A stretch of 64,000 bases of DNA from Natronomonas moolapensis 8.8.11 (GTDB lineage: Archaea; Halobacteriota; Halobacteria; Halobacteriales; Haloarculaceae). Below are positions 12,355-23,730 of the stretch, piece by piece. Position 1 is the stretch's first letter. Each line of letters begins with the position of its first letter. The translations under genes were made by a program, and so were the position numbers. The notes under the pieces were generated by a model. That model saw nothing but the letters and a program-made list of their open reading frames with translations. It did not search any database and was not told the origin of the DNA. The DNA is taken from positions 2,356,001 to 2,420,000 of the forward strand of contig NC_020388.1 in the NCBI RefSeq assembly GCF_000591055.1. Direction: 5' to 3'.

Positions 12355-12879
12355 TCACACCCGCCCGCACCCGTGGAGATTCTCGAGGATCTCCGGGTCG
12401 GTCCGGAACTTCAAGACGTTCGTCATGAGCGAGTTCCGGATGTTGTCGACGACCGGGCCGTGGCGCGTGTAGAACTCGTGGATCCACCGCGATTGGGACT
12501 CCCGGTCGGTGAACATCATCACCGATTTCCACTGGTACTCGCCGTCCGAGAGGAAATACAAGAGCGTGTTGTGTGAATCCCTGATGTACTCCATCGCCTC
12601 GCGCCACCCCGCCTCGAAGTGCTCGGGATCGAACTTGAACTCGAAGAGCGCGAAGTAAAAGTACGCCTCGTTTGGGATGATCGCCTCCCGGAAGACGCCC
12701 TCCTCGCGCATCGATCGGATCGACTCGGAGACGGTGACGTGGGAGACGTCGATGTCGTGTTTCGCTGCCAAGATGTCGGCGAGTTCCCGCGAGGAGAGCT
12801 GTGGATCCCGCGACAGTTCGCGCAACACCAAGACGTCGCGCTCTTTGAATTCCCACTCCGGCGGGTCGCGTGCTGTCAT
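12355..12879 (-). CDS. winged-HTH regulator, Lrp/AsnC-like
   Basis: A 174-residue regulator. The N-terminal winged helix spans about residues 10-75 (FKERDVLVLRELSRDPQLSS, then SHVTVSESIRSMREEGVF). An alpha/beta ligand-sensing half follows (AYFYFALFEFKFDPEHFE...TLLYFLSDGEYQWKSVMMF). It resembles the Lrp/AsnC family in order of parts but lacks a textbook RAM domain. The ATG at 12879 is the natural start. It may control the adjacent surface-protein region, but nothing in the sequence proves that. Confidence 0.82.
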   Translation of the reverse strand: MTARDPPEWEFKERDVLVLRELSRDPQLSSRELADILAAKHDIDVSHVTVSESIRSMREEGVFREAIIPNEAYFYFALFEFKFDPEHFEAGWREAMEYIRDSHNTLLYFLSDGEYQWKSVMMFTDRESQSRWIHEFYTRHGPVVDNIRNSLMTNVLKFRTDPEILENLHGCGRV

Positions 12880-13160
12880 ACCTCATACATCGTCTGCCCG
12901 GGTACTGTCAGTTTCGGTGCAGAGCGACCGGCGAGGTCCGCGTCGGCACACGGTCGGACTGGGTGGGTCCGTCGCTCCCGCGTGGGCATCCGCAGCCACC
13001 GGTATCGATGCGCTAGTCCGCAGGAACACCCGGCACCCGAGGTTGTCCCCCGTCGTGTCGGCGACCCCTCGTTCGTCGTCTGCTTCAAGCAGTACGCGCG
13101 GCGCCCCGCCCACGACGGAAAGGTTGATTCACTCGGCCGGCCGAACGAGGATACAAACGA

Positions 13161-14315
13161 ATGCTCCGGAAGATTGCCGGACAGGTGGGGACTGTCGTGC
13201 TCGTCGCCGTGCTCGTCTCGCTCGTGGTCGGGCAGGCGCTCGGCCAGCCGGTGTTGCTCGCCTACGTCGAATCGGGGAGTATGGAGCCAACGATCGACGA
13301 GGGCGATGGGTTCGTTGCGATCCCTTCGGTCGTCGCCACGACACCACAGGAGGGCGATGTCGTCACCTTCCGCGCCGAGGAGATCGAGGGGGGCGGGCTC
13401 ACGACCCATCGGATCGTCGACGAGACACCGGAGGGATACGTCACCAGAGGTGACGCCAACCCCTTCACCGACCAGGACGGCGGCGAGCCCCCGGTCACCG
13501 AGGGCGATATCGTCGCGAAGGCGCTGCAGATCGGCGGCTACACCGTAACGATCCCCCGCCTCGGCACCGGGATCGAGGCGGTCCAGGGCGTGCTGTTGGC
13601 GGTGACGACCGCCATCGCCGGGGCGTTCGGCCTGGGTGCCAACCTCACCGCCGAGACGGTCGGATTCGGGCTGTTCGGCTTCGGACTCGTGCTGTTCGTC
13701 GCCTCCCTCGTCGGCGAGCGACGCGGGTCTCCGGAGCGCGACAGGCGGCGCTCTCGGCGGCGCACCGGGCAGCTCGACACCCGGGTGATCGCGCTCGTAA
13801 TGATGCTCGTCGTGCTCGTGCCGGCCAACGCCGCGATGATCCTCCCCGCCGGGCCGACGGAGATCACCGTCGACGGCGACGACGTGGCCGAGGCCGAGGG
13901 CGTCAGCGCCGGCGACGCGGTCGACGCCGAACTCACGATCCGCAACGACGCGTTCCTGACGATGGTGTTCACCTTCGAGTCGGCGAGCGAGGACGTGGCG
14001 ATCGACCGGGAGGCGCTGTCGATACCGCCCGGGGGGGAGACGACGGTGACCGCGTCGGTGCCGGCGCCGGAGCCGGGGACCGAGCGGACGATCACGATCG
14101 AGGAGCGGCGCTACTTCCTCCTGGGTCCCGAGTCGGCGATCACCTGGCTGCACGACGTGCGGCCGCTGGCCGCCATCGGCGCGCTGAATCTCTTCATCGG
14201 CGCGAGCGTCTTCGGGTTCGTCGGCGGGCTGTTCGGCTTCGGACCCTCGCGGTTCAGGGAGACCGACCGCGGTGTCCCGCTTTTGATGCGGGTGAAACGA
14301 CAGCTCCGGCGGTGA
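13161..14315 (+). CDS. signal peptidase I, SipW/archaeal (Ser-His) type
   Basis: A 384-residue S26 signal peptidase. An N-terminal helix (7-27) is followed by the catalytic ESGSMEPT with nucleophile Ser40. The general base is His83 in TTHRI, not Lys, as in archaeal, ER and SipW enzymes. RGDANPFTDQ around 96-105 is the conserved Asp box. Two more helices flank a basic loop. The last third is an extracytoplasmic beta domain (residues ~232-325) plus a final helix, making it much longer than minimal enzymes. A SipW-type enzyme next to several DUF1102-type secreted proteins suggests it processes them. It is convergent with the DUF5305 gene. Confidence 0.92.
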   Translation: MLRKIAGQVGTVVLVAVLVSLVVGQALGQPVLLAYVESGSMEPTIDEGDGFVAIPSVVATTPQEGDVVTFRAEEIEGGGLTTHRIVDETPEGYVTRGDANPFTDQDGGEPPVTEGDIVAKALQIGGYTVTIPRLGTGIEAVQGVLLAVTTAIAGAFGLGANLTAETVGFGLFGFGLVLFVASLVGERRGSPERDRRRSRRRTGQLDTRVIALVMMLVVLVPANAAMILPAGPTEITVDGDDVAEAEGVSAGDAVDAELTIRNDAFLTMVFTFESASEDVAIDREALSIPPGGETTVTASVPAPEPGTERTITIEERRYFLLGPESAITWLHDVRPLAAIGALNLFIGASVFGFVGGLFGFGPSRFRETDRGVPLLMRVKRQLRR

Positions 14316-14413
14316 GTCCAGCGGCGGCGAGCGGTGGACGCACGGTCGTCTCTCGGGTCGAGCGAAGCGATCCGCCGGGGACCGAGCAGGTGCAGCGCGT
14401 CGCTCCCGGCGAG

Positions 14414-15709
14414 TTACGGGTTCCGGGGGTCGCTGTCACCGTCGCGGACCGGCGAGCCCTCGCCAGCCGACTCGTCCCCGTCGTCGGCGTCGGAGCCGGC
14501 TCCGGGGGGGTCTCCGGTCGCGCTCCCGTCCCCGCCGCCGACTGCCACGTCGATCCCGCCGTCGACGGCGGGCGAGACGGCCTCGGCGACGACGTCGGGG
14601 GGATCGAAGCGGTACTCGATGTCGTCGACGACGGTGGCGTACCGCGGCGTCGGCTCGACGCGCTCGACGACCCGGCGGTCGCTGTCGATGGCGGTGTCGA
14701 CGGCGTCCTCGAGGCTGTCCAACTCGATCACGCGGTCGGCGCTCTCGTCGGGCAACGTCCCGCGGGAGATCCACTCGTCGTAGTCTTCGCGGGCGCGCTG
14801 GAAGGTGAGCCGGCGGCGCTCGGCCGGCGAGACCGCGAAGGCGCCGCGGTGCGTGAGCCCCCCGACGCCGAGCGCGCCGAGCAACCCGAGGACGACCAGC
14901 GCGGGGCCGCCGTACAGCTCCGCCGGGGAGTGCTCGACGGGGACCTCGACGGTGGCGGTCGCCTCGTAGGGCTCGCTCGAATCGACCTCGCTGTCGACGC
15001 TGTAGGTGCCGCCGTCGGGCTCGAGCCTGAGTCGGTCGGTGCGTTCCTCGGTGAAGCGCTCGCCCTCGACCTCGGCCTCGAAGGTCGTATCGGCGACGAC
15101 GACGATCTCGCGCGTGCCGGGGGAGGCACCGAGGTCCTCCTCGATCCGGTCGAGGCGGTTCGTCAGTTCGGTCGCGTTGGTCTCGAACTGGACGATGTGG
15201 GTCTCCCCGGGCGGGAGCCGATCGATCTCCTCGCTCGCGAGCGGGTCGATCTGTCGCCAGTACGTGACGGTCTCCGTCTCACCGTCATCGGTGTCGACCT
15301 CCTCGGTGGCCTGCAGCACGAGCCGGAGGTCGACCCGCCCGGTCGCGGTGTCGGCGTCGCCGGAGTGGCTGAGGCGATACTGCCCGTCGAGTACCGGCGA
15401 TATCCGGGTGAAGTAGAGTTCGCGCTCGGAGAGGCGCTGCCCGCGGTCGAAGACGATGCTGGTGTTCGAGACCACGGCGCTGTGGGAGAACCCTGCGTCC
15501 GGCTCCCAGGTCCCGACGGTCTGGGTCTCGAACCGCGTCTCGGGGGCCGTCTGCACGTCGTACGTGAGATAGCCGCCCCCGGCGGCGACGACCAGGAAGA
15601 CGAGGATCGCGACGACGGCGTAGCGGCCGGCGAGCGAGCGCGTCGACGGCGAGAGCCGGCGGTGAAGCCTGTCGGTGATCTCGCTCTCGCCCCCATCCCC
15701 ACCGCTCAT
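14414..15709 (-). CDS. DUF5305 membrane protein
   Basis: A 431-residue protein. It has a short cytoplasmic start, a helix (AVVAILVFLVVAAGGGYLTY), a long extracytoplasmic beta-rich domain of ~230 residues, a second helix near residue 265 (GGPALVVLGLLGALGVGGL) and an acidic cytoplasmic tail rich in Gly/Asp/Ser. This matches DUF5305, a haloarchaeal family of unknown function. It is convergent with the signal peptidase, and the two likely serve the same secretion or surface-assembly process. ATG 15709 is used; a TTG 18 codons upstream would also stay in frame. Confidence 0.78.
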   Translation of the reverse strand: MSGGDGGESEITDRLHRRLSPSTRSLAGRYAVVAILVFLVVAAGGGYLTYDVQTAPETRFETQTVGTWEPDAGFSHSAVVSNTSIVFDRGQRLSERELYFTRISPVLDGQYRLSHSGDADTATGRVDLRLVLQATEEVDTDDGETETVTYWRQIDPLASEEIDRLPPGETHIVQFETNATELTNRLDRIEEDLGASPGTREIVVVADTTFEAEVEGERFTEERTDRLRLEPDGGTYSVDSEVDSSEPYEATATVEVPVEHSPAELYGGPALVVLGLLGALGVGGLTHRGAFAVSPAERRRLTFQRAREDYDEWISRGTLPDESADRVIELDSLEDAVDTAIDSDRRVVERVEPTPRYATVVDDIEYRFDPPDVVAEAVSPAVDGGIDVAVGGGDGSATGDPPGAGSDADDGDESAGEGSPVRDGDSDPRNP

Positions 15710-16108
15710 TCCGGCCTCGCCCCCGACGGCCGCCGCGACGACGTCCCGGAGCGAACGATACAACCTGTGAGCCAGCGTTCACGTCGACCCCCCATACCCG
15801 CCGGGCCGGACGGCACGCTAAAGGGTCTTTCCCTTCCGGTGGGCACGCGCCGCCTGTCGCTCCCGCAGTCGTATTTCATTTATATATCGATAGGACCGAA
15901 TTGGTGGTATTGACCGGTTAGCCGTCTCGATTCCGACAGACGCGGGACGGACGCGAGACAGACGCGTGTCGGACCCCGCGAGACGGACGTAACGAAGGAA
16001 ATCGGCACACAGCGGGCTGGAAGACGGTCGATCTTACCGCGTCAAACCGCCGTTCACGCCGACCCGTATATTTATATTCTTGCCCTATGTTATTACTCAA
16101 TGTAGCAA
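15710..16108. other. gene-free stretch with two divergent TATA regions
   Basis: No coding region is visible. tttatatatcg (15879-15889) can act as a TATA box for the DUF5305 gene on the minus strand. tatatttata (16067-16076) is the plus-strand TATA for the DUF7344 operon. Between them lies a run of related cagacgcg and gacggacg words (15935-15990) that could be regulator sites. Confidence 0.5.
16067..16076 (+). promoter_or_regulatory. TATA box of the DUF7344 operon
   Basis: tatatttata lies about 35 bases before the TTG start at 16109. This predicts transcription starting near 16098-16102 with a leader of about ten bases. Confidence 0.6.
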
Positions 16109-16660
16109 TTGGGTGGGACTACGTTGCACACGACACAAGCTTCGACGGGATCAGACGTGTTCAGTTTGCTCAGCAACCAGCGACGGCGTTACGCCGTCCA
16201 GGCGTGTCAACACCTCGACACGCCGATCGAACTCGGCGAGCTCGCCGAGTACGTCGCCGCCGAGGAGTGCGGCAAGTCGATCTCGGAGATCACCAGCGAA
16301 GAGCGCCGGCGGGTGTACACCTCCCTCCAGCAGGTCCACATCGACAAACTCGAGGAGGCGGGGGTGATCGAGTGCGACCGCAAGACGATCGAACCCACCG
16401 ACCGCCTGGAGGAGCTGGAGTTCTACCTCGAGGTCGTCCCGGGCGACGAGATCCCGTGGGCGGAGTACTATCTGGGGCTCTCGGGGGTCGCGGCGGTCGT
16501 GACCGCCGGCGCGTGGGTGGGCATCTACCCGGATGCGGTGCCCGCCGTCGCGTTGCTCGCGCTCTTCGTCGGGGTGTTCGCGGTGTCGGCGGGGATGCAC
16601 TACGTCCAGACGAAGCGGCACAAACTGGACGCGGGACTCGGGGGGGATGCGGATGCGTGA
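16109..16660 (+). CDS. DUF7344 winged-helix membrane regulator
   Basis: A 183-residue protein. The N-terminal winged helix is of the haloarchaeal DUF7344 type (VFSLLSNQRRRYAVQACQHL, RRRVYTSLQQVHIDKLEEAG), residues ~17-100. A C-terminal pair of helices (GLSGVAAVVTAGAWVGIYP and AVPAVALLALFVGVFAVSA) would anchor it in the membrane. Such proteins are thought to be DNA-binding or signalling proteins tied to the envelope. The start is TTG 16109: an ATG at 16100 is followed at once by a stop, and the ATG at 16087 is out of frame. Its stop overlaps the next gene by eight bases, so the secreted protein downstream is coupled to it. Confidence 0.8.
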   Translation: MGGTTLHTTQASTGSDVFSLLSNQRRRYAVQACQHLDTPIELGELAEYVAAEECGKSISEITSEERRRVYTSLQQVHIDKLEEAGVIECDRKTIEPTDRLEELEFYLEVVPGDEIPWAEYYLGLSGVAAVVTAGAWVGIYPDAVPAVALLALFVGVFAVSAGMHYVQTKRHKLDAGLGGDADA

Positions 16661-17252
16661 GGATCGCGACCTGCGGACGTACACGCGCCGCGGCGCGTTG
16701 GGGTTGATGGGAGCGGGTGGGGTGTTCGCGGCGACGGAGACGTTTGGTGTCACCAACCTAACAGCAGGACGTGGGACGAACATCATAGTTGCGAACGACA
16801 GTGCAGATGCTGTTGCACTGGAACTAGTCGACAGTAATGGAAGCATAGGCGGAGAAATCTATACACTTCCCGACAGTGACACTGAAACTTTTACGATCAC
16901 CAACCAGTCTGGTGAATCGCTCTCCAGTTCTGCCGATGACCTGACGGTCACGTTGTCGGGTTCTAATCCCAACGGCTCTGGAGAAGTAACTATTGAGAGT
17001 ACTTCAGGGTTTGATTCTTCTGACTTTCCTGTAACAGATACCGGCGACGCAACATTAATAATAAATTCTAGTTTAGGTTCCTCCGATAGTGGAAGTTTTC
17101 AACTCGGAATAAACGACACAACCGAGTCAAGTAATGGGGGCACTACCGATGTCCGAGACGCTCTCGACGTTGAAATAACCGTCACAGCGGAGTTCCCGAA
17201 TACGACACTCAGCTTCACACGATCAATAACTATCGAAGACCAGTCTGCTTAA
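16653..17252 (+). CDS. secreted DUF1102-like surface protein with Tat-type signal
   Basis: A 199-residue secreted protein. The twin-arginine-style signal (TRRGALGLMGAGGVFAATE) is followed by a short segment aligning with the three DUF1102-like proteins downstream (A-x-R-x-x-x-I-x-V-A-N-D), then a Ser/Thr/Asn-rich beta domain with no Cys. From about 16740 the gene is clearly AT-richer than its neighbours (runs such as acattaataataaattc), a sign of transfer or relaxed selection. ATG 16653 overlaps the DUF7344 gene by eight bases, and the stop overlaps the next gene by one base (TAATG). The fibre-subunit role is inference from context. Confidence 0.75.
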   Translation: MREDRDLRTYTRRGALGLMGAGGVFAATETFGVTNLTAGRGTNIIVANDSADAVALELVDSNGSIGGEIYTLPDSDTETFTITNQSGESLSSSADDLTVTLSGSNPNGSGEVTIESTSGFDSSDFPVTDTGDATLIINSSLGSSDSGSFQLGINDTTESSNGGTTDVRDALDVEITVTAEFPNTTLSFTRSITIEDQSA

Positions 17253-17779
17253 TGAGTGGGCGATCATCAGACGATGCCAACCTTACGTACGGTGATATCA
17301 TCACCGTACTCAATAGCGAAGGTATACTGCTTGACTCTAATGACGACCTCACTCTCACCGACTCGTTCCGCACCGACTGGCGGCGTCGCATCGACCAGGT
17401 GGCCGAGGACCCGACGACGTACCTCGGCCTCGTCGTCGAGGCCGACCCGGAATCGCTCGTCGTCGACGACGACGAGGACGGCATCGCGGTCCGGGACGAA
17501 TCGGGATCGATCACCCGGACGGTCGGGGAGTGGCCCTCCGAGGCGGCGCTTCTCGCCGACGTCGCCGCGTTCGTCTCGCTGGGGGAGTGGCTCCCCGAGT
17601 TCGAGGCGTTGGACGGCGTCGAGCGCGACGAGCTGGTCGCGCGACTGCGGGTGTTTCTGGAGGCCTGTCCGAGCTGTGGCGGCGAACTCAAAGAGGGGGA
17701 GGATCCGAGTGACGCCGCGGCGGCGGAGGTATCCGTTCCCGACGTGTCCTGTAGGGACTGCGGGGCGGCGCTGTTCTGA
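17252..17779 (+). CDS. acidic protein with C-terminal zinc ribbon
   Basis: A 175-residue cytoplasmic protein, strongly acidic. The last 45 residues hold two cysteine knuckles, CPSCGG and CRDCGA, spaced as a zinc ribbon. The first 130 residues show no motif I can name. It is the third gene of an overlapping operon after DUF7344 and the secreted protein. Its first ~100 bases are AT-rich like the preceding gene and the rest returns to the usual GC level. Confidence 0.75.
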   Translation: MSGRSSDDANLTYGDIITVLNSEGILLDSNDDLTLTDSFRTDWRRRIDQVAEDPTTYLGLVVEADPESLVVDDDEDGIAVRDESGSITRTVGEWPSEAALLADVAAFVSLGEWLPEFEALDGVERDELVARLRVFLEACPSCGGELKEGEDPSDAAAAEVSVPDVSCRDCGAALF

Positions 17780-18161
17780 GTCACTAACACAGCCGGATCG
17801 ATGCAGTCGTTTTCGACACCTTCATTGAACTTTGTAGGAAGGGAAAACAGCGGACATAGTGGTGTGTTCTAGCCGATACCTCTTGATGAAAGGCGCTTGT
17901 TGTCGTATAGGCCCTCGCTCGCTCATCGAACTCCGGACACGATGGTGTGGGTGTGCGGTGGGTGAGTCGCGACAACTGCTCTATCGATCTTCACAGCTCA
18001 CCGACACCACCACAAAACAACGGACACGACGGTGTGGGTGTCGAGGATCGAATTTCTGACTGGGGACGACGAAATCAGCCCCGTGTGCCCACGGTTGACT
18101 GAGATACACCCCACCACGTCGCTGAGGCGGCCAAATCCGAACGCGACCCGGAAACGAGAGT
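17780..18161. other. gene-free stretch with three iterated repeats
   Basis: No coding region is visible between the zinc-ribbon gene and the integrase remnant. Related words begin at 17851 (cggacatagtggtgtg), 17934 (cggacacgatggtgtgggtg) and 18021 (cggacacgacggtgtgggtg), 83 and 87 bases apart. Such iterons resemble binding sites of a replication initiator or regulator. Next to a broken integrase they may mark the end of a decayed integrated element. Confidence 0.5.
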
Positions 18162-18415
18162 GTGTTCCAAACGGTGAAGCAACCAGCGAGTCGGAAGTTC
18201 CGGCAGATATCCAAGGAGACGGGCGCGGAGGTGACGATTCAGATGCTTCGTCGATGGTTCGTGATCGAGATGAGTCGATGTGGTGTTGACACGGACATAT
18301 CGGCGCGTTCTGTGGGAGAACGAAGTCGAGCGTCTTGGAGAAGCATTCTCTCGACTATTCGCTGGAGCGGTTGAAGGAGATATACGACGACGCGGGCCTC
18401 ACGATGCTTGACTGA
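18162..18415 (+). pseudogene. C-terminal remnant of a tyrosine recombinase (integrase), frameshifted
   Basis: Read from 18162, the frame gives KFRQISKETGAEVTIQMLRR and WFVIEMSRCGV, the box II region of haloarchaeal phage-type integrases, where HxLR has become QMLR. Near 18300 the frame shifts. The second frame continues AFCGRTKSSVLEKHSLDYS then LERLKEIYDDAGLTML and a stop at 18413-18415. Both frames together rebuild the usual C-terminus of these integrases, including the SVLxKHYTDYS region, where the first Tyr is now Ser. The N-terminal and central catalytic parts are absent. This is a dead fragment of a provirus or integrative plasmid. Confidence 0.75.
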
Positions 18416-18486
18416 GCCTTGCGGTGTGGTTTTTGTGTCATGAAAAATCGCGGTTGACTGACGAGCGACTTGGGAGGCGTGGTTAT

Positions 18487-19827
18487 CTACGAACTGTTAT
18501 CGGCAGCCGTAACGTCGAGATCAGAGAGGGAAATCGATTGACCGTTGACGGTGACGCTACTAACGCTCTTTTCACTGCTGCTACTGTTGCCAATATAAAC
18601 GCTCACTTCATCTAGACTGACTTCCCCTCTGCTAAGGTTTTCATTGTTCAACTCGCTAATGACTTGTTTTACTCCGCCACCACTCTCTGTCTTATCAGGA
18701 TCCGCATCAGCTCCATCGATCACAGCGGGAATCAGTCTACTACTCTGAACATTTCCGTTTACGTTAACTGCGTTGCTGAAATATGCAGTCCCAGTTCCAC
18801 CGTCTGCGGTTGGTCCGACAAGGAAGCCGAGAGCGTCAACATCACCGGACGTGTAATCCTGGTCAGTCCCGTTGATGCCAGATACAACAGGGATTTGAAT
18901 TCCCTCAATAGCGGTCAGTCCCGACGATCCAGTCGAGGTAATCGTTCCACCGCTGGACTTGCTCAGGTCGCTAGCGTCGATTCTCCCACCGCTGAACTCA
19001 GCATTTATCACTAAATAACCGGGTTCAGGTTCGTAACCGCCAACTCTGAATTCCCCTTTATTTTCTCCGAACGCTTTACTAAGCTGATTACCGTTTCCGC
19101 TGAAAGCACTATTGTCTTCTAAAGTGGCCTGCGAGATCGTGAGAGCGTCATCCGGCTCAAGCGTAAGCGTGTCTCTCTCTCGCTGCTGAACGAAGTTCTG
19201 GTTGGCGAGGTCCGATCCAGCGCGGAAGACCACGTCTCCGGTGATGTCTTCGGGATCGCTGGAATTGAACGTCTCGACCCGAATTGCGACGTCAATTTCA
19301 TCATCGGGATCTACGCCGCTGAACACCTCACTCGATCCGTCGGCGATCGTTTGAGTACTACCATCTGGACTACCTCCGTCTCTAGGAGTCGCCACGAGTT
19401 CAAACGTCGCGCTGTTGTCCAGTGCTTCGAAGTCCGTCAGATCGATTTCGATATCGACCTTACCGTCGAAGTTATCGCCGTCGCTGTCGAGTTCATTGTC
19501 GAAATTGCTGACGAGTTTGAATGCTCCGCTACCGTCGGCTACATCACCATTTTTAATTTGTCCGATTTCGACCGTTGAGCCGACATTGAATCCTTCGTTG
19601 TCGGCACCCAGCCGGTCGGTATCGATGACAAGCTCGCCATCACTATCCTCGATCACCGAGGCAACACTATCGTTTGGAACAAGCGCAATCAACGCTTCGC
19701 TATCGGGGTCGACACCGATCGTCACGTCGCGCGATGCCTGCAGCTGCGTAAACGCCCCCGATCCGAATACGATTCCACTCCCCGCCGCCGCTGTGCCCAA
19801 TCCAAGGAGGACATTCCGTCTGTTCAT
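18487..19827 (-). CDS. DUF1102-like secreted surface protein, long form
   Basis: A 446-residue secreted protein. The N-terminus RRNVLLGLGTAAAGSGIVFG ends in GSGAFT, followed by A-S-R-D-V-T-I-G-V. This is the shared start of the DUF1102-like family in this window. The rest is Ser/Asp/Asn-rich beta structure without Cys and has no transmembrane tail. It is about twice the length of its two plus-strand relatives, which suggests a second beta domain. It is transcribed away from them across a 429-bp divergent region. A minus-strand cattaataac about 45 bases upstream is the likely promoter. By analogy with SipW-dependent TasA/AbpA proteins it may be a fibre subunit or adhesin. Confidence 0.78.
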   Translation of the reverse strand: MNRRNVLLGLGTAAAGSGIVFGSGAFTQLQASRDVTIGVDPDSEALIALVPNDSVASVIEDSDGELVIDTDRLGADNEGFNVGSTVEIGQIKNGDVADGSGAFKLVSNFDNELDSDGDNFDGKVDIEIDLTDFEALDNSATFELVATPRDGGSPDGSTQTIADGSSEVFSGVDPDDEIDVAIRVETFNSSDPEDITGDVVFRAGSDLANQNFVQQRERDTLTLEPDDALTISQATLEDNSAFSGNGNQLSKAFGENKGEFRVGGYEPEPGYLVINAEFSGGRIDASDLSKSSGGTITSTGSSGLTAIEGIQIPVVSGINGTDQDYTSGDVDALGFLVGPTADGGTGTAYFSNAVNVNGNVQSSRLIPAVIDGADADPDKTESGGGVKQVISELNNENLSRGEVSLDEVSVYIGNSSSSEKSVSSVTVNGQSISLSDLDVTAADNSS

Positions 19828-20256
19828 GAGTACGTGTTCACCGCATCCGTACCCATGCCCCCAAGGGTGTTATTAATGAGTCGGCTGAGCGTGTTCAGAC
19901 CCAGTCTGAGCGACGACGGTCGCCCGTACGACACGACCCGCACGCGACGCGACCCGCCCGGGACCGATTCGAACCCCGGAGAACCGATCGGGCCGACGAC
20001 ACCGCCGTCGACGTCGACGGACTCCCGACCGCCCGTGACGATTCGACGATCTGAGACGCCCTCCTGCCGCAATACGACGTTCCTCAGGGCCGGTTTGAGC
20101 GCTCCGGTGGACGCTCACGGGGGCGCTGAACGCCTCCGGCATGGATCAGACGATGCCTGAAACGGATCACGCGTGTGCCTGAGGACCGTCAGGGAACTCA
20201 TTAACATATAGGTGGGCGTTCTGTGCGTGGACAATGACGAGGTGGGTTCGTCGGCC
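19828..20256. promoter_or_regulatory. divergent promoter region of the DUF1102-like genes
   Basis: I see no real gene in these 429 bases. A TATA-like cattaataac (minus strand, 19869-19878) serves the long DUF1102-like gene. ttaacatatagg (20201-20212) serves the plus-strand cluster, leaving a leader of about 20-30 bases before 20257. The middle is GC-rich with no obvious hairpin. Confidence 0.5.
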
Positions 20257-20811
20257 ATGAATCGGCGCAACGTACTGGTCGGGCTCGGAGCGGCCGCGAC
20301 CGGCAGCAGCGTGGTGTTGGGCTCCGGCGCGTTCGCGCAGGTCAGCACCGCGAGGAGTGTCACGATCGCGGTGGACAAAGATAGCGAGGCGTTGGTACAA
20401 CTCGAAGCCGGTGATCCAACGCCGGTTCAGGAGAACGGCAGCGGCGAACTCGAGATCAGTACGGAGAACTTCGGTGGGGCGTTCAACGAGAACGCGACGG
20501 TGGAGATAGGTGATCCAGATAATCCAGGTACGACTCCAGCCTTCAGCGTGACGAACAACTTCGACGTCGATATCGATCTCACGCTGAATTTGCAGGACAT
20601 CGACTCAAGCAATGATTTTACGCTGTATTTTGATCAAACCTCAAGCTTCCCAGATACACTTGACGCAAACGGAAGTACGGATTCAACTTTGGGTTCAGAT
20701 ACAGATACGACGCTGAACATCGCAATCAAGATCGACACCCAGAGCGCTGGATCGAATTTCGACGGGACGATACAGATCGATGCGAGCCATCCCTCGTCCG
20801 GAGGTGCCTGA
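20257..20811 (+). CDS. DUF1102-like secreted surface protein
   Basis: A 184-residue secreted protein beginning RRNVLVGLGAAATGSSVVLG-SGAFAQ, then A-R-S-V-T-I-A-V-D-K-D-S-E-A. This is very close to the matching part of the 446-residue protein (VTIGVDPDSEA). The remainder is an acidic beta domain ending HPSSGGA with no anchor. ATG 20257 begins the signal. It is the first of three genes on the plus strand: the next DUF1102-like gene starts 67 bases downstream, and that one overlaps the PGF-CTERM protein gene. Confidence 0.78.
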   Translation: MNRRNVLVGLGAAATGSSVVLGSGAFAQVSTARSVTIAVDKDSEALVQLEAGDPTPVQENGSGELEISTENFGGAFNENATVEIGDPDNPGTTPAFSVTNNFDVDIDLTLNLQDIDSSNDFTLYFDQTSSFPDTLDANGSTDSTLGSDTDTTLNIAIKIDTQSAGSNFDGTIQIDASHPSSGGA

Positions 20812-20878
20812 CCATGGTTCGACGACTCACTGACTGCGGTAACGGGAAACAGGAGACTCTCGGGGGTGTCGACAACAC

Positions 20879-21496
20879 ATGAACCGACGAAGCGTACTCA
20901 AGGGACTGTCGGCCGCGTCAATCGGGTCGGTGGGGCTCGTGTTCGGATCGGGCGCGTTCACCGAGGCGACCGCCACCCGCGATTTCTCGATTTCGGTGGC
21001 GAACGACGGCAGCGATAGCGCACAGCTCCAGATCGAACCACAGGGGGTTAGCTCGGATTCCGTATATCAAACCGAGTCCGGCGTGCTGGTGATCGACGCC
21101 AGTAAGCTTCCGCCACAGGCGATAACCACCCTCGGCCGGTTTGGTGATCTCAGCGATGCGAACTCCCTGAAAGAGGAGGTTTTCGCGATCACCAACGAGA
21201 ACGACACTGGTGAATCGGTCGCTATCACCGTGAACGTCGAGATCACCAGTGACGACGACGACGCGACGCTCAATGTCGCTATCGCGCCGGAAAATAACCA
21301 GGGGAACGTCGATAGCGAGAGCGTTACTGTAGCTACAGCGACAGGTAAAGGAGCAGGATCCAGCGGGTCAGCCATGGTCAGAAGTGTCTCAGTCGGCGAC
21401 CAGGTCCTCGGGGGTATCCTCATCAATTCGGCAGGTGCCGAAACGATTGAGGCCGATATCACGATCGAAGCCGACCAGTCGGTGGAGGCAAGATGA
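20879..21496 (+). CDS. DUF1102-like secreted surface protein
   Basis: A 205-residue secreted protein with the same N-terminal design: RRSVLKGLSAASIGSVGLVF, GSGAFTEA, A-T-R-D-F-S-I-S-V-A-N-D. A beta-rich acidic domain follows, ending ADITIEADQSVEAR. Its stop overlaps the ATG of the following PGF-CTERM gene by four bases (ATGA), so the two products are probably made in fixed proportion: one a subunit, the other its cell-anchored partner. Confidence 0.8.
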   Translation: MNRRSVLKGLSAASIGSVGLVFGSGAFTEATATRDFSISVANDGSDSAQLQIEPQGVSSDSVYQTESGVLVIDASKLPPQAITTLGRFGDLSDANSLKEEVFAITNENDTGESVAITVNVEITSDDDDATLNVAIAPENNQGNVDSESVTVATATGKGAGSSGSAMVRSVSVGDQVLGGILINSAGAETIEADITIEADQSVEAR

Positions 21497-23730
21497 ACAC
21501 ACGTACGCTGCTCGCCGGGTTCTTTGTTGTCGCCCTGATCGGAAGCGCCGTCGTCGGTACCGGCGCGGGCGACATCTTCAGCGGCCAAGACGAAGTCGAG
21601 GAGAGCGTCACGCTCAGCCCCGCGGACACGCCCGAGGGCGACGCGTACGCCTCAACGACCGACGCCGGCGAGCTGTCCGTCACGATCGATGGACTCCCGC
21701 AGAACGCCCAGACGGACGTCGACGACGTATTCAATGTCTCCTTCGACTCCCCGACCAGTCCCACCGCGAAGGTACTGATCAATGAAAGCGAATCGAACGA
21801 CAACGTCGATTTCGTCGTCACGGACGCCTCCAACGCGGCGGGCGTGCAGTCGGGCGCTGACATCGACGACTCGCGGGTCGAACTCGAATCGGGCGAGTCG
21901 GTCCTCGTCGGCGTCGAACTCGACGGCACCTCGGGTGGCGACGTCACGATCGAGGAGATCACCGCCGACGTCGAACTCGACGCCGGCGACCTCGCGGTGA
22001 CCTTCGACAACAACGTCATCGCCGCGGGCGACGGCCAGACCCAGGCGACGGCGACCACGCTGTTCGAGGACGGCGTCACCGAAGATCGGACCGCCGACGC
22101 CGAGTTCTCCAGCAACGACACCGACGTCGTCGAGGTCGACGACGACGGCACGATCACCGCGGGCGAGGCGGGTACTGCGACGATCACCGCTGAGCTGGAC
22201 GCCGAGGACGTCGTCGGCGACGAGGGTGTCACTGCCGAGGCGGAAATCAACGTCGGCCTGATAACGGACCTCGACGTCGAACTCGCGGACGACCGCGTCC
22301 GGTTCGGCAGCGGGGTCAGCCAGACCGAGACGACGGCCGTCGACAGCGTCACTGCCACGCTCGCGGACGGCACCACGACTGACGTCACGAACGACACCGA
22401 TCTCACCGTGGCGCCCGCCGACGGCGACGCGGAACTCGTCGACGTGAACGACCTGACCATCGCGCCGACCGAGGACGCCACCGGCACGGCGACGATCCAA
22501 GCGGAACTGCAGGGCGAAAGTGACGCAGTCGACGTCACGGCGGTCCGGCGCTCGCGGGCAACCGTCGACGCCGATGAGGGCACCGCGAGCTTCGACGGCA
22601 CGGAGAGGATCGATTCTATTACTTTCGAGGGCGTTGACCTGCAGGGCAGCGAAACGGTCGAGATTGAGGAGTCCGACCAGCCACCCGACGAAGAGGACCT
22701 CCCGGACAATATCGATCCGGCAACAAGCGTAACAATCACCGACGGTACTAGCGTCACCGTTGACGACGAGAACGAAGACGAAAGCGCGAATCTCACAGCC
22801 AGAGTGCCGACCGACGAAGTCAATCGAGGCGACATCGTCGTGATCCGACTCCCCGACGACGGTGGCTCCCAGAGGCTGGATCCCTATGTCGGAGACCCGG
22901 TCGACGACAAATACGTCGTCAAGTTCGAGACGCCCGGCTTCTCGACGTTCGTCCTCGGCGGCACGACTACCGAACCCTCCGGCGGCGGAGGCGGTGGCGG
23001 TGGCAGCGGGGGCGGTAGTTTCGGCGGCGGTGGTCTCTCGCCGTCGGTCTCCGTCTCGACCGGCGTCGACGTCGCATCGGGCGGAACGGTCGAACTGGGC
23101 CGTGGCACGGTCGAGTCGATCAGGTTCGAGGAAGCCACCCAAGGAACTCTCGAAATCGACGATTACGGGACCTCTGTCCCGCCGGGCAGCGCCGAGACCG
23201 GCGACCGCCCGGTGCTTGCCAGCGCCGACATCACCGCGCCCGACTCGGTATCGGACTCACCGGCGACCATCCGGATGACAGTCGATCAGACCGAACTGCT
23301 CCGAACCGGCGTCGACGCCGACGAGCTCGCGATCCTGAGAGAAACTGATACCCGATATCAGACGCTTGATACGTCTGTCGCCGGCGAGAACGGGGACGTG
23401 ACTCTCGAGGCCCGGACGCCTGGTTTCTCGACGTTCATCGTCACCACCGACGAAGGTGACATAGTCTTCGACACCGACGCCGACACGCCGGTGCCGGACG
23501 ACGGCGGGACGCCCGTCCCCGGCGACGGCGCGCCCGCGGACGACGATGCGACCGAGACGCCCGACACCGAGGCGACCGAGACGCCCGACACCGAGGCGAC
23601 CGAGACGCCCGACACCGAGGCGACCGAGACGCCCGAACCCGAATCGCTGCCCGGCTTCGGCGCCGCTGTCGCCGTCGTGGCGTTGCTCGCCGCCGCGCTG
23701 TTGGCTGCGCGCCGGCGGACGGACGGCTGA
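21493..23730 (+). CDS. PGF-CTERM surface glycoprotein with Ig-like and PGF-pre-PGF domains
   Basis: A 745-residue exported protein. Its parts are a Sec signal (TLLAGFFVVALIGSAVVGTG), several acidic beta domains including a Big2-like one (DDDGTITAGEAGTATITAEL), two copies of a TPGFSTFV motif (PGF-pre-PGF type, near residues 475 and 640), a Gly-rich linker near 500-520, ATETPDTE repeats, and a PGF-CTERM anchor (LPGFGAAVAVVALLAAALLA followed by Arg). In haloarchaea such tails are cut and lipidated by archaeosortase A, leaving the protein on the cell surface. The threonine-rich stalk is a likely O-glycosylation region. It is cotranslated with the DUF1102-like gene before it. Confidence 0.85.
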   Translation: MNTRTLLAGFFVVALIGSAVVGTGAGDIFSGQDEVEESVTLSPADTPEGDAYASTTDAGELSVTIDGLPQNAQTDVDDVFNVSFDSPTSPTAKVLINESESNDNVDFVVTDASNAAGVQSGADIDDSRVELESGESVLVGVELDGTSGGDVTIEEITADVELDAGDLAVTFDNNVIAAGDGQTQATATTLFEDGVTEDRTADAEFSSNDTDVVEVDDDGTITAGEAGTATITAELDAEDVVGDEGVTAEAEINVGLITDLDVELADDRVRFGSGVSQTETTAVDSVTATLADGTTTDVTNDTDLTVAPADGDAELVDVNDLTIAPTEDATGTATIQAELQGESDAVDVTAVRRSRATVDADEGTASFDGTERIDSITFEGVDLQGSETVEIEESDQPPDEEDLPDNIDPATSVTITDGTSVTVDDENEDESANLTARVPTDEVNRGDIVVIRLPDDGGSQRLDPYVGDPVDDKYVVKFETPGFSTFVLGGTTTEPSGGGGGGGGSGGGSFGGGGLSPSVSVSTGVDVASGGTVELGRGTVESIRFEEATQGTLEIDDYGTSVPPGSAETGDRPVLASADITAPDSVSDSPATIRMTVDQTELLRTGVDADELAILRETDTRYQTLDTSVAGENGDVTLEARTPGFSTFIVTTDEGDIVFDTDADTPVPDDGGTPVPGDGAPADDDATETPDTEATETPDTEATETPDTEATETPEPESLPGFGAAVAVVALLAAALLAARRRTDG
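23548..23640 (+). repeat. 24-bp tandem repeat coding ATETPDTE
   Basis: Three full units of gcgaccgagacgcccgacac(cgag) and most of a fourth encode the Thr-rich stalk just before the PGF-CTERM anchor. The copies are identical at DNA level, so stalk length can change by slippage. Confidence 0.9.

Follow-up and report, generated by a model that had tools for sequence, protein, structure and literature searches.

A probable surface-fibre locus of the Tat-fimbria kind in Natronomonas moolapensis

What does a cluster of genes for a signal peptidase, membrane proteins and secreted proteins build in the haloarchaeon Natronomonas moolapensis 8.8.11? The cluster lies in a 64,000-nucleotide stretch of contig NC_020388.1 (positions 2,356,001 to 2,420,000), hereafter the window, and a preliminary description had read it as a haloarchaeal counterpart of the SipW/TasA fibre loci of Bacillus. 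We consider it probable that its product is a surface fibre akin to the haloarchaeal Tat-fimbriae, formed by the mechanism proposed below. Tat-fimbriae are thin fibres on the cell, with subunits that resemble biofilm-fibre proteins of archaea and bacteria. An ORF check of the window found all genes of the candidate locus (Table 1), and the whole genome, a single contig of 2,912,573 bp, was searched alongside.

Table 1. Genes of the candidate fibre locus and its edges (window coordinates)
Feature	Coordinates	Strand	Matches and remarks
Winged-helix protein	12355..12879	-	Weak HTH matches only; locus edge
S26 signal peptidase (Ser-His, archaeal/ER type)	13161..14315	+	Pfam S26, TIGR02228
DUF5305 membrane protein	14414..15763	-	PF17231, 231 bits
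DUF7344 winged-helix protein	16109..16660	+	PF24035, 87 bits
TafC-like protein with Tat signal	16653..17252	+	TafC, 27 bits, E 2e-6
Small Zn-ribbon protein	17252..17779	+	Weak Zn-ribbon matches
446-aa pilin-domain protein with Tat signal	18487..19827	-	TafE, 5e-14
184-aa pilin (TafE/TafA-like) with Tat signal	20257..20811	+	TafE, 1e-14
205-aa pilin (TafE-like) with Tat signal	20879..21496	+	TafE, 8e-13
TafF-like PGF-CTERM protein	21493..23730	+	TafF, 1e-8; PGF-CTERM, PGF-pre-PGF, Big_2

Gene content and kinship of the locus

Galeva and colleagues are said to have described, in 2025 (iScience 28:111793), haloarchaeal Tat-fimbriae or 'tafi' with the components TafA, TafC, TafE and TafF. The window shares with these loci the S26 peptidase, DUF5305 and DUF7344 gene neighbourhood, the DUF7344-TafC and TafE-TafF adjacencies, and pilins with Tat signals; the Taf gene roles used here are taken from NCBIfam names and comparative evidence. 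Its pilins, TafC-like and TafF-like proteins are homologous to Taf proteins at E < 1e-5 (2e-6 to 1e-14), but the locus differs from tafi in having no clear TafA orthologue, no lectin domain in the TafC-like protein, a TafF-like protein that is PGF-CTERM-sorted and carries a Big_2 domain, and an extra 446-aa pilin-domain protein. A canonical locus in our survey has TafA, TafC, TafE and TafF all above their curated cut-offs, and because every Taf-type protein of the window scores below them (TafE at best 54 of 155 bits, TafC 27 of 410, TafF 35 of 420, TafA 33 of 190) we count the locus as a divergent relative. The published Tat-fimbriae, which the preliminary description did not name, have this gene set, and a homologous pilin structure is already deposited (see below); the locus is a divergent relative of them, not a new class.

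The membrane proteins are much as first described. The peptidase scores 71.1 bits (9e-20) against TIGR02228 in a profile search, above the cut-off of 51.85, with a Pfam S26 match of 25 bits, and an alignment shows its Ser40 and His83 invariant across 17 relatives. It contains about five membrane segments, together with an extracytoplasmic insert that is conserved and rich in beta structure. The genome has just one further S26-like gene, and we propose that the window peptidase is the dedicated peptidase of the pilins. DUF5305, which more likely starts at an internal ATG near 15709, consists of a beta domain between two membrane-like segments; we propose that it is an assembly or accessory factor, and that the DUF7344 protein, with two C-terminal membrane-like segments, is a membrane-tethered regulator of the cluster.

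All four secreted proteins carry RR followed by a hydrophobic stretch, as in twin-arginine signals. The fuller N-terminal plan attributed to all of them holds for the 446-aa, 184-aa and 205-aa proteins; the TafC-like protein has RR and A-G-R-G-T-N-I-I-V, and lacks GSGAF. In an alignment of 81 pilin relatives, A25 and R33 never vary and F26 is kept in 79, far beyond chance, while the invariance of RR was dropped as evidence because start codons had been chosen by the RR motif. The label 'DUF1102-like' is right at the profile level: the pilin profile retrieves bona fide DUF1102 proteins outside haloarchaea, and the N-terminal domain of the PGF-CTERM protein barely clears the Pfam cut-off (22.6 against 22.2).

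The individual subunits can be assigned candidate places. We regard the 184-aa pilin as the candidate main fibre subunit and the 205-aa pilin as a candidate adapter, cotranslated with the anchor. The TafC-like gene overlaps the DUF7344 gene and follows it, which is the TafC position in canonical loci, and its product has no lectin module. In the 446-aa protein a pilin domain (residues 1 to about 205) is followed by about 240 further residues that form an additional C-terminal domain; relatives match only the pilin part, Pfam reports no known domain, and the orthologous locus in Natronomonas sp. LN261, the closest relative found, has no such protein. It is a candidate specialised or tip subunit. 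Lectin modules (Laminin_G_3, ricin-B) and VWA are fused in TafC or long pilin-domain relatives, and TafC-slot relatives with lectin modules are likely fibre tips. Two neighbours with only weak domain matches were considered as members and left unassigned: the winged-helix gene at the locus edge, with no counterpart among the genes of the related loci surveyed, and the Zn-ribbon gene, whose start overlaps the TafC-like stop and which has one distant relative in other loci; its product probably lies outside the fibre system.

The expected association of peptidase, DUF5305 and pilin genes is borne out across haloarchaea. Peptidase and DUF5305 are both present in 109 of 110 TafE-positive haloarchaeal genomes (Fisher p 5e-20), usually within 10 kb; of 112 TafE matches, 93 have the peptidase no more than 10 kb away, where chance would give about 1%, and among the matches listed a DUF5305 gene is within 10 kb of 135 of 150 peptidases. 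The 74 related loci of at least 11 kb contain DUF5305 in 71 cases, TafA/E in 67, DUF7344 in 63 and all three in 58. Such loci occur in 110 of 145 haloarchaeal genomes, far more commonly than the curated TafE model reports (14 of 145).

Fold, donor strand and anchor

Fold comparison points to donor-strand pili. The model of the 184-aa pilin (pLDDT 76, moderate) has as its best PDB match the AbpA bundling pilin of Pyrobaculum calidifontis (7ueg; E 1.9e-4, probability 1.00, TM 0.49/0.50), followed by other donor-strand pili, and the anchor N-domain model also finds 7ueg first (E 2.3e-3, probability 0.99, TM 0.36), then Saf/Fim pilins. AbpA is thus the best match for both models built, with TM-scores at or below 0.5 and about 10% of structurally aligned residues identical, and it comes from a different phylum. 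We know of no Tat signals in AbpA of P. calidifontis. Of the two folds anticipated earlier, AbpA was recovered, whereas TasA is not among the best 50 matches of the 184-aa pilin. The monomer model leaves the N-terminal 41 residues free and without strands, as would be expected of a donor strand, the other feature that had been looked for. The most likely reading of the secreted proteins is as subunits of a donor-strand fibre like that of AbpA; that part of the preliminary description stands, while the fibre class it suggested does not.

A deposited structure brings the comparison closer to home. The three identical chains of PDB 9p0a, an entry named 'Pilin', are hit by the family profile at E 1.7e-44 and by the single 184-aa sequence at E 2e-5. 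A pilin of identical sequence is encoded in Natrinema gari, in a locus that also holds DUF7344, TafF, peptidase and DUF5305. The 9p0a pilin belongs to the same protein family and locus type, but has low identity to the window pilin beyond the N-terminal third, and the TafF-like protein of its locus ends in a plain membrane segment. A literature search found no paper naming 9p0a.

The PGF-CTERM protein (Pfam 24.8 bits, TIGR04126 42 bits) had been proposed as the cell anchor, cotranslated with a secreted protein. Its gene does overlap the stop of the 205-aa pilin gene by 4 bases (ATGA, 21493-21496), and TafE-TafF gene pairs are conserved in other loci. An N-terminal pilin-type (DUF1102) domain is followed by a Big_2 domain and a C-terminal sorting/anchor signal. 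The N-domain is homologous to the pilins in a profile comparison (E 8e-20), and a profile search with it against PDB sequences gave nothing credible. The donor-strand motif, present in 78 of 81 pilins, occurs in only 3 of 42 TafF relatives and is absent from the window protein, while in 38 of 44 TafF relatives a membrane-like segment lies close to the C-terminus. A domain of pilin type that lacks the donor motif, joined in most relatives to a C-terminal membrane segment, suggests an acceptor-only subunit and makes the cell-anchor role plausible.

Alternative readings of the locus

A literal archaeal SipW/TasA matrix locus, in which SipW would cut Sec-exported TasA/camelysin proteins, has real parallels here. 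Mature TasA starts with residue 28 and has Phe at P2' (PMC10151520, PMC10269814), and residues 28-38 form its N-terminal donor strand (PMC9674648); the Bacillus TasA/TapA/SipW system resembles the proposed working of the locus in its dedicated ER-type peptidase, the A-F at the mature N-terminus and the donor strand. The SipW equivalog NF046067 matches the window peptidase at E 1e-9, and DUF5305 and S26 genes adjoin genuine SipW-dependent TasA/camelysin genes outside haloarchaea, DUF5305 lying 1.8-3.6 kb from them in eight genomes. That SipW match, however, is 37.9 bits against a cut-off of 190, and TIGR02228 fits the peptidase far better. The substrates carry twin-arginine signals, whereas Bacillus uses Sec export with a SipW-type signal and a TapA starter in place of an anchored acceptor-only subunit. 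The SipW-dependent signal TIGR04088 is found neither in window proteins nor elsewhere in the genome, and the camelysin/TasA domain PF12389, detected in another surveyed locus, is absent from window proteins. With TasA missing from the best 50 fold matches, these results make this reading very doubtful; the profile results in particular rule out filing the locus under SipW/TasA, as had been suggested, the window proteins having no sequence-level membership.

The secreted proteins might instead each act on their own, as adhesins or enzymes that leave the cell by the Tat route and associate with the S-layer; they would not polymerise, and the peptidase would simply mature them. Relatives that fuse variable domains to the pilin part, large family sizes in some genomes and a surface-anchored PGF-CTERM partner would all suit such proteins, but a homologue deposited as a three-chain pilin, fold hits on AbpA and further donor-strand pilins, and an invariant donor-like segment argue for polymerisation, and a passage of PMC12687288 cites fibres known for TafA-type loci. 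We think non-polymerising adhesins unlikely. Least likely of all is that the fibre locus is decaying, or does not function, in N. moolapensis: the TafC-like protein lacks a lectin module, the pilin genes are separated by a stretch of 0.7 kb that is poor in genes and low in G+C, and one congener genome has none of these genes, yet the reading frames are all intact and identity to LN261 is 91% for the peptidase and 79% for both DUF5305 and the 205-aa pilin.

Proposed assembly and its wider meaning

In the Tat-fimbria reading that we prefer, three or four proteins would be exported via the Tat pathway, and the locus-specific S26 peptidase would cut near G-[ST]-G-A-F, freeing a short N-terminal segment, A-x-R-x-V-x-V, that would complete, as donor strand, the beta-sandwich of a neighbouring subunit. 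The TafF-like protein could only accept a strand, because its pilin domain has no donor strand of its own, and would be the likely base where the fibre starts, because its C-terminal signal holds it at the cell surface. On this base the 205-aa pilin would sit first, as adapter, and the 184-aa pilin would form the shaft, while the TafC-like and 446-aa proteins would be specialised subunits that probably lie nearer the tip. At the membrane DUF5305 would assist assembly, and DUF7344 would regulate.

What is new here is the TafF-like pilin-type domain without a donor motif, the lectin modules in TafC-slot relatives, and the occurrence of DUF5305 and S26 beside SipW-dependent genes outside haloarchaea. 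Since DUF5305 is common to true SipW/TasA-type loci of other archaea and haloarchaeal Tat-pili, it probably takes part in the assembly of such fibres in general, and its function becomes testable. More tentatively, haloarchaeal Tat-pili could be a Tat-exported offshoot of archaeal SipW/TasA systems that shares their S26-DUF5305 assembly module, each fibre starting on a donor-less, acceptor-only pilin anchored in the envelope by a membrane helix or archaeosortase signal and tipped by exchangeable lectin-pilins; we hold this possible, though somewhat doubtful. If true, subunits that are exported folded through Tat, cut by a dedicated signal peptidase and then joined by donor-strand exchange would represent a route to fibres without chaperone or usher. 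The donor-strand reading specifies exactly which segment is involved and which peptidase would free it, which makes the question of how a folded Tat-exported pilin polymerises testable, and the donor-less TafF-like anchor offers a concrete candidate for what holds the fibre on the cell.

Relation of the locus to haloarchaeal Tat-fimbriae

All genes that the preliminary description named for a putative surface-fibre locus are present in the window at the positions given there (see table). The locus is real and looks functional, and it probably represents a new and divergent example of a type of fibre that was described recently. The functional reading given there was largely right, but the SipW/TasA family label was wrong, and the class was already known. 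It is that of the Tat-fimbriae (Galeva et al. 2025, iScience 28:111793, cited in PMC12687288), which are presented in PMC12687288 as thin surface filaments exported by Tat, with TafA as core component. We compared the window proteins with the NCBIfam models of haloarchaeal TafA, TafC, TafE and TafF and their curated cut-offs. Three match TafE (E 8e-13 to 1e-14), and TafA is matched more weakly; the TafC-like protein matches TafC at 2e-6 and the PGF-CTERM protein matches TafF at 1e-8, all far under the cut-offs. A canonical locus in another genome (L102), with all four proteins above the cut-offs, shares with the window an S26 peptidase, DUF5305, and DUF7344 immediately before TafC. These common neighbours, together with the sub-threshold Taf matches, lead us to place the window locus among the Tat-fimbriae as a divergent member.

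Features of the locus, by position in the window
Feature	Position	Strand	Remark
Signal peptidase	13161-14315		archaeal S26 type
DUF5305 protein	14414-15763	-	
DUF7344 protein	16109-16660		
TafC-like protein	16653-17252		no lectin-type module
Zn-ribbon ORF	17252-17779		start overlaps stop of TafC-like gene
Interval, 0.7 kb	17780-18486		no convincing gene; G+C below average
26-bp direct repeat	copies at 17929 and 18016		88%
446-aa pilin-domain protein	18487-19827	-	extra C-terminal domain
184-aa pilin	20257-20811		
205-aa pilin	20879-21496		4-base overlap with next gene
TafF-like PGF-CTERM protein	21493-23730		

The signal peptidase (TIGR02228, 71 bits) has Ser40 and His83 invariant among its aligned relatives, and DUF5305, DUF7344 and PGF-CTERM all exceed their Pfam cut-offs. 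In the closest congener found, Natronomonas sp. LN261, the peptidase is 91% identical. The first part of the Zn-ribbon ORF looks lower in G+C than the remainder, as though the end of a gene had become joined to the variable region, and the ORF has a distant relative in another locus with pilins (L112:3511-4434). The interval after it, which splits the TafC-like part from the pilins, is possibly a decayed mobile element.

Among 145 haloarchaeal genomes, a TafE-like gene occurs in 110, and the peptidase and DUF5305 in 118 each; both are present in 109 of the 110 TafE genomes (Fisher p 5e-20). Of the 112 TafE matches listed, 93 lie no more than 10 kb from a peptidase relative (about 1% expected), and 135 of the 150 peptidases listed are as close to DUF5305. 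Among 74 named loci spanning 11 kb or more around the peptidase, 71 hold DUF5305, 67 a TafA/E-like gene and 63 DUF7344. The proposed genomic association of peptidase and pilin genes is thus clearly present. The TafE cut-off is passed in only 14 of these genomes, which means that the curated models capture a small part of the family.

Pilin fold, processing and anchoring

The N-terminal plan RR..GSGAF..A-x-R-x-x-x-I-x-V, attributed earlier to four secreted proteins, is complete in three; the TafC-like protein lacks GSGAF. A model of the 184-aa pilin built from 81 aligned sequences (pLDDT 76) is all-beta beyond residue 41, and its free segment 26-41 holds an invariant Arg33 and alternating hydrophobic residues. 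Of the two structural relatives that had been proposed, AbpA, the Pyrobaculum bundling pilin, was the top Foldseek match in the PDB (E 1.9e-4, probability 1.00, TM 0.49/0.50), followed by Pyrodictium cannulae and Csu and Fim pilins, but TasA was absent from the best 50. By sequence, the family profile matched PDB 9p0a, 'Pilin', at 1.7e-44; across a comparison of 212 residues, this chain is identical to a pilin of Natrinema gari that sits between DUF7344 and TafF/peptidase/DUF5305.

The close parallel to TasA lies at the mature N-terminus. G-[ST]-G-A-F is near-invariant among the pilins (A 81/81, F 79/81). In TasA, residue 28 is the first of the mature part and Phe occupies P2'; the archaeal-like SipW peptidase cuts this site, whereas LepB does so poorly (PMC10151520, PMC10269814). 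The donor strand of TasA comprises residues 28-38 (PMC9674648). By analogy, the window pilins would be cleaved near G-[ST]-G-A-F.

At its N-terminus, the PGF-CTERM protein has a domain of the TafF N-domain family, and this family shares homology with the pilins (hhalign 99.2%, E 8e-20). The model of the domain again finds the bundling pilin first, though weakly (E 2.3e-3, TM 0.36), and then the Saf and Fim donor-strand pilins. The donor-strand motif is found in 78/81 pilins, whereas it is matched in only 3/42 TafF relatives. A membrane-like segment lies near the C-terminus in 38/44 TafF relatives, and in the window and LN261 proteins this segment is a PGF-CTERM-type sorting signal (LN261 tail judged by eye). 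Such a protein would be an acceptor-only, surface-fixed subunit, as expected of a fibre base, and from this anatomy the proposal that it is the cell anchor seems an even call.

Variable tips and pilin repertoires

TafC carries a Laminin_G_3 domain in Haloarcula, and in Halomicrobium the protein in the TafC slot has a ricin-B lectin; long pilin-domain proteins of other loci carry LamG or beta-helix domains, and a DUF1102 protein from outside the haloarchaea a VWA domain. These fusions suggest exchangeable adhesive tips. The 446-aa window protein is absent from LN261. A small contig from the same family as the window genome (G190:C360:67-6000) has a cluster of six or more pilin-domain genes, of which the three best show 52-60% identity to the N-terminal part of that protein. 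Some haloarchaea have up to 15 TafE-like genes per genome (L113, L193, G110, G123, G128, G045), several encoding proteins longer than 800 aa, and LamG or beta-helix domains occur in some; such sets are possible adhesin repertoires. One contig (L141), assigned to a 'Mollicutes bacterium' MAG, bears a typical haloarchaeal pilin locus and is probably mis-binned.

DUF5305 and SipW-dependent systems

Outside the haloarchaea, DUF5305 occurs in 24 sampled genomes of the same phylum. In one, G308 (L218, G308:C1:559000-578000), its neighbours are DUF7344, a closely related peptidase and four true DUF1102 proteins, which score up to 150 bits and lack a twin arginine, one of them being fused to a VWA domain; this locus is likely a non-Tat counterpart of the haloarchaeal Tat system. 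In eight others (G262, G218, G227, G296, G300, G335, G358, G393) DUF5305 lies 1.8-3.6 kb from SipW-dependent-signal genes, two of which, in G262, also have a camelysin domain. At loci of other archaeal classes (L211-L217), DUF5305 often adjoins S26 peptidases and SipW-dependent/camelysin-type genes, and its function is apparently linked to fibres of this sort generally.

Canonical SipW-type genes were found in some haloarchaea and none in the window's own genome. Clusters of long SipW-dependent-signal proteins occur in G001, G007, G013 and other haloarchaea, with the Tat-pilin system absent from G001 and G007, and appear to form a canonical SipW-type system of their own. Since DUF5305 is found near Tat-pilins, DUF1102 and SipW-dependent genes alike, we conclude that both kinds of fibre are served by the peptidase/DUF5305 module; the original SipW/TasA intuition was in this respect right in kind.
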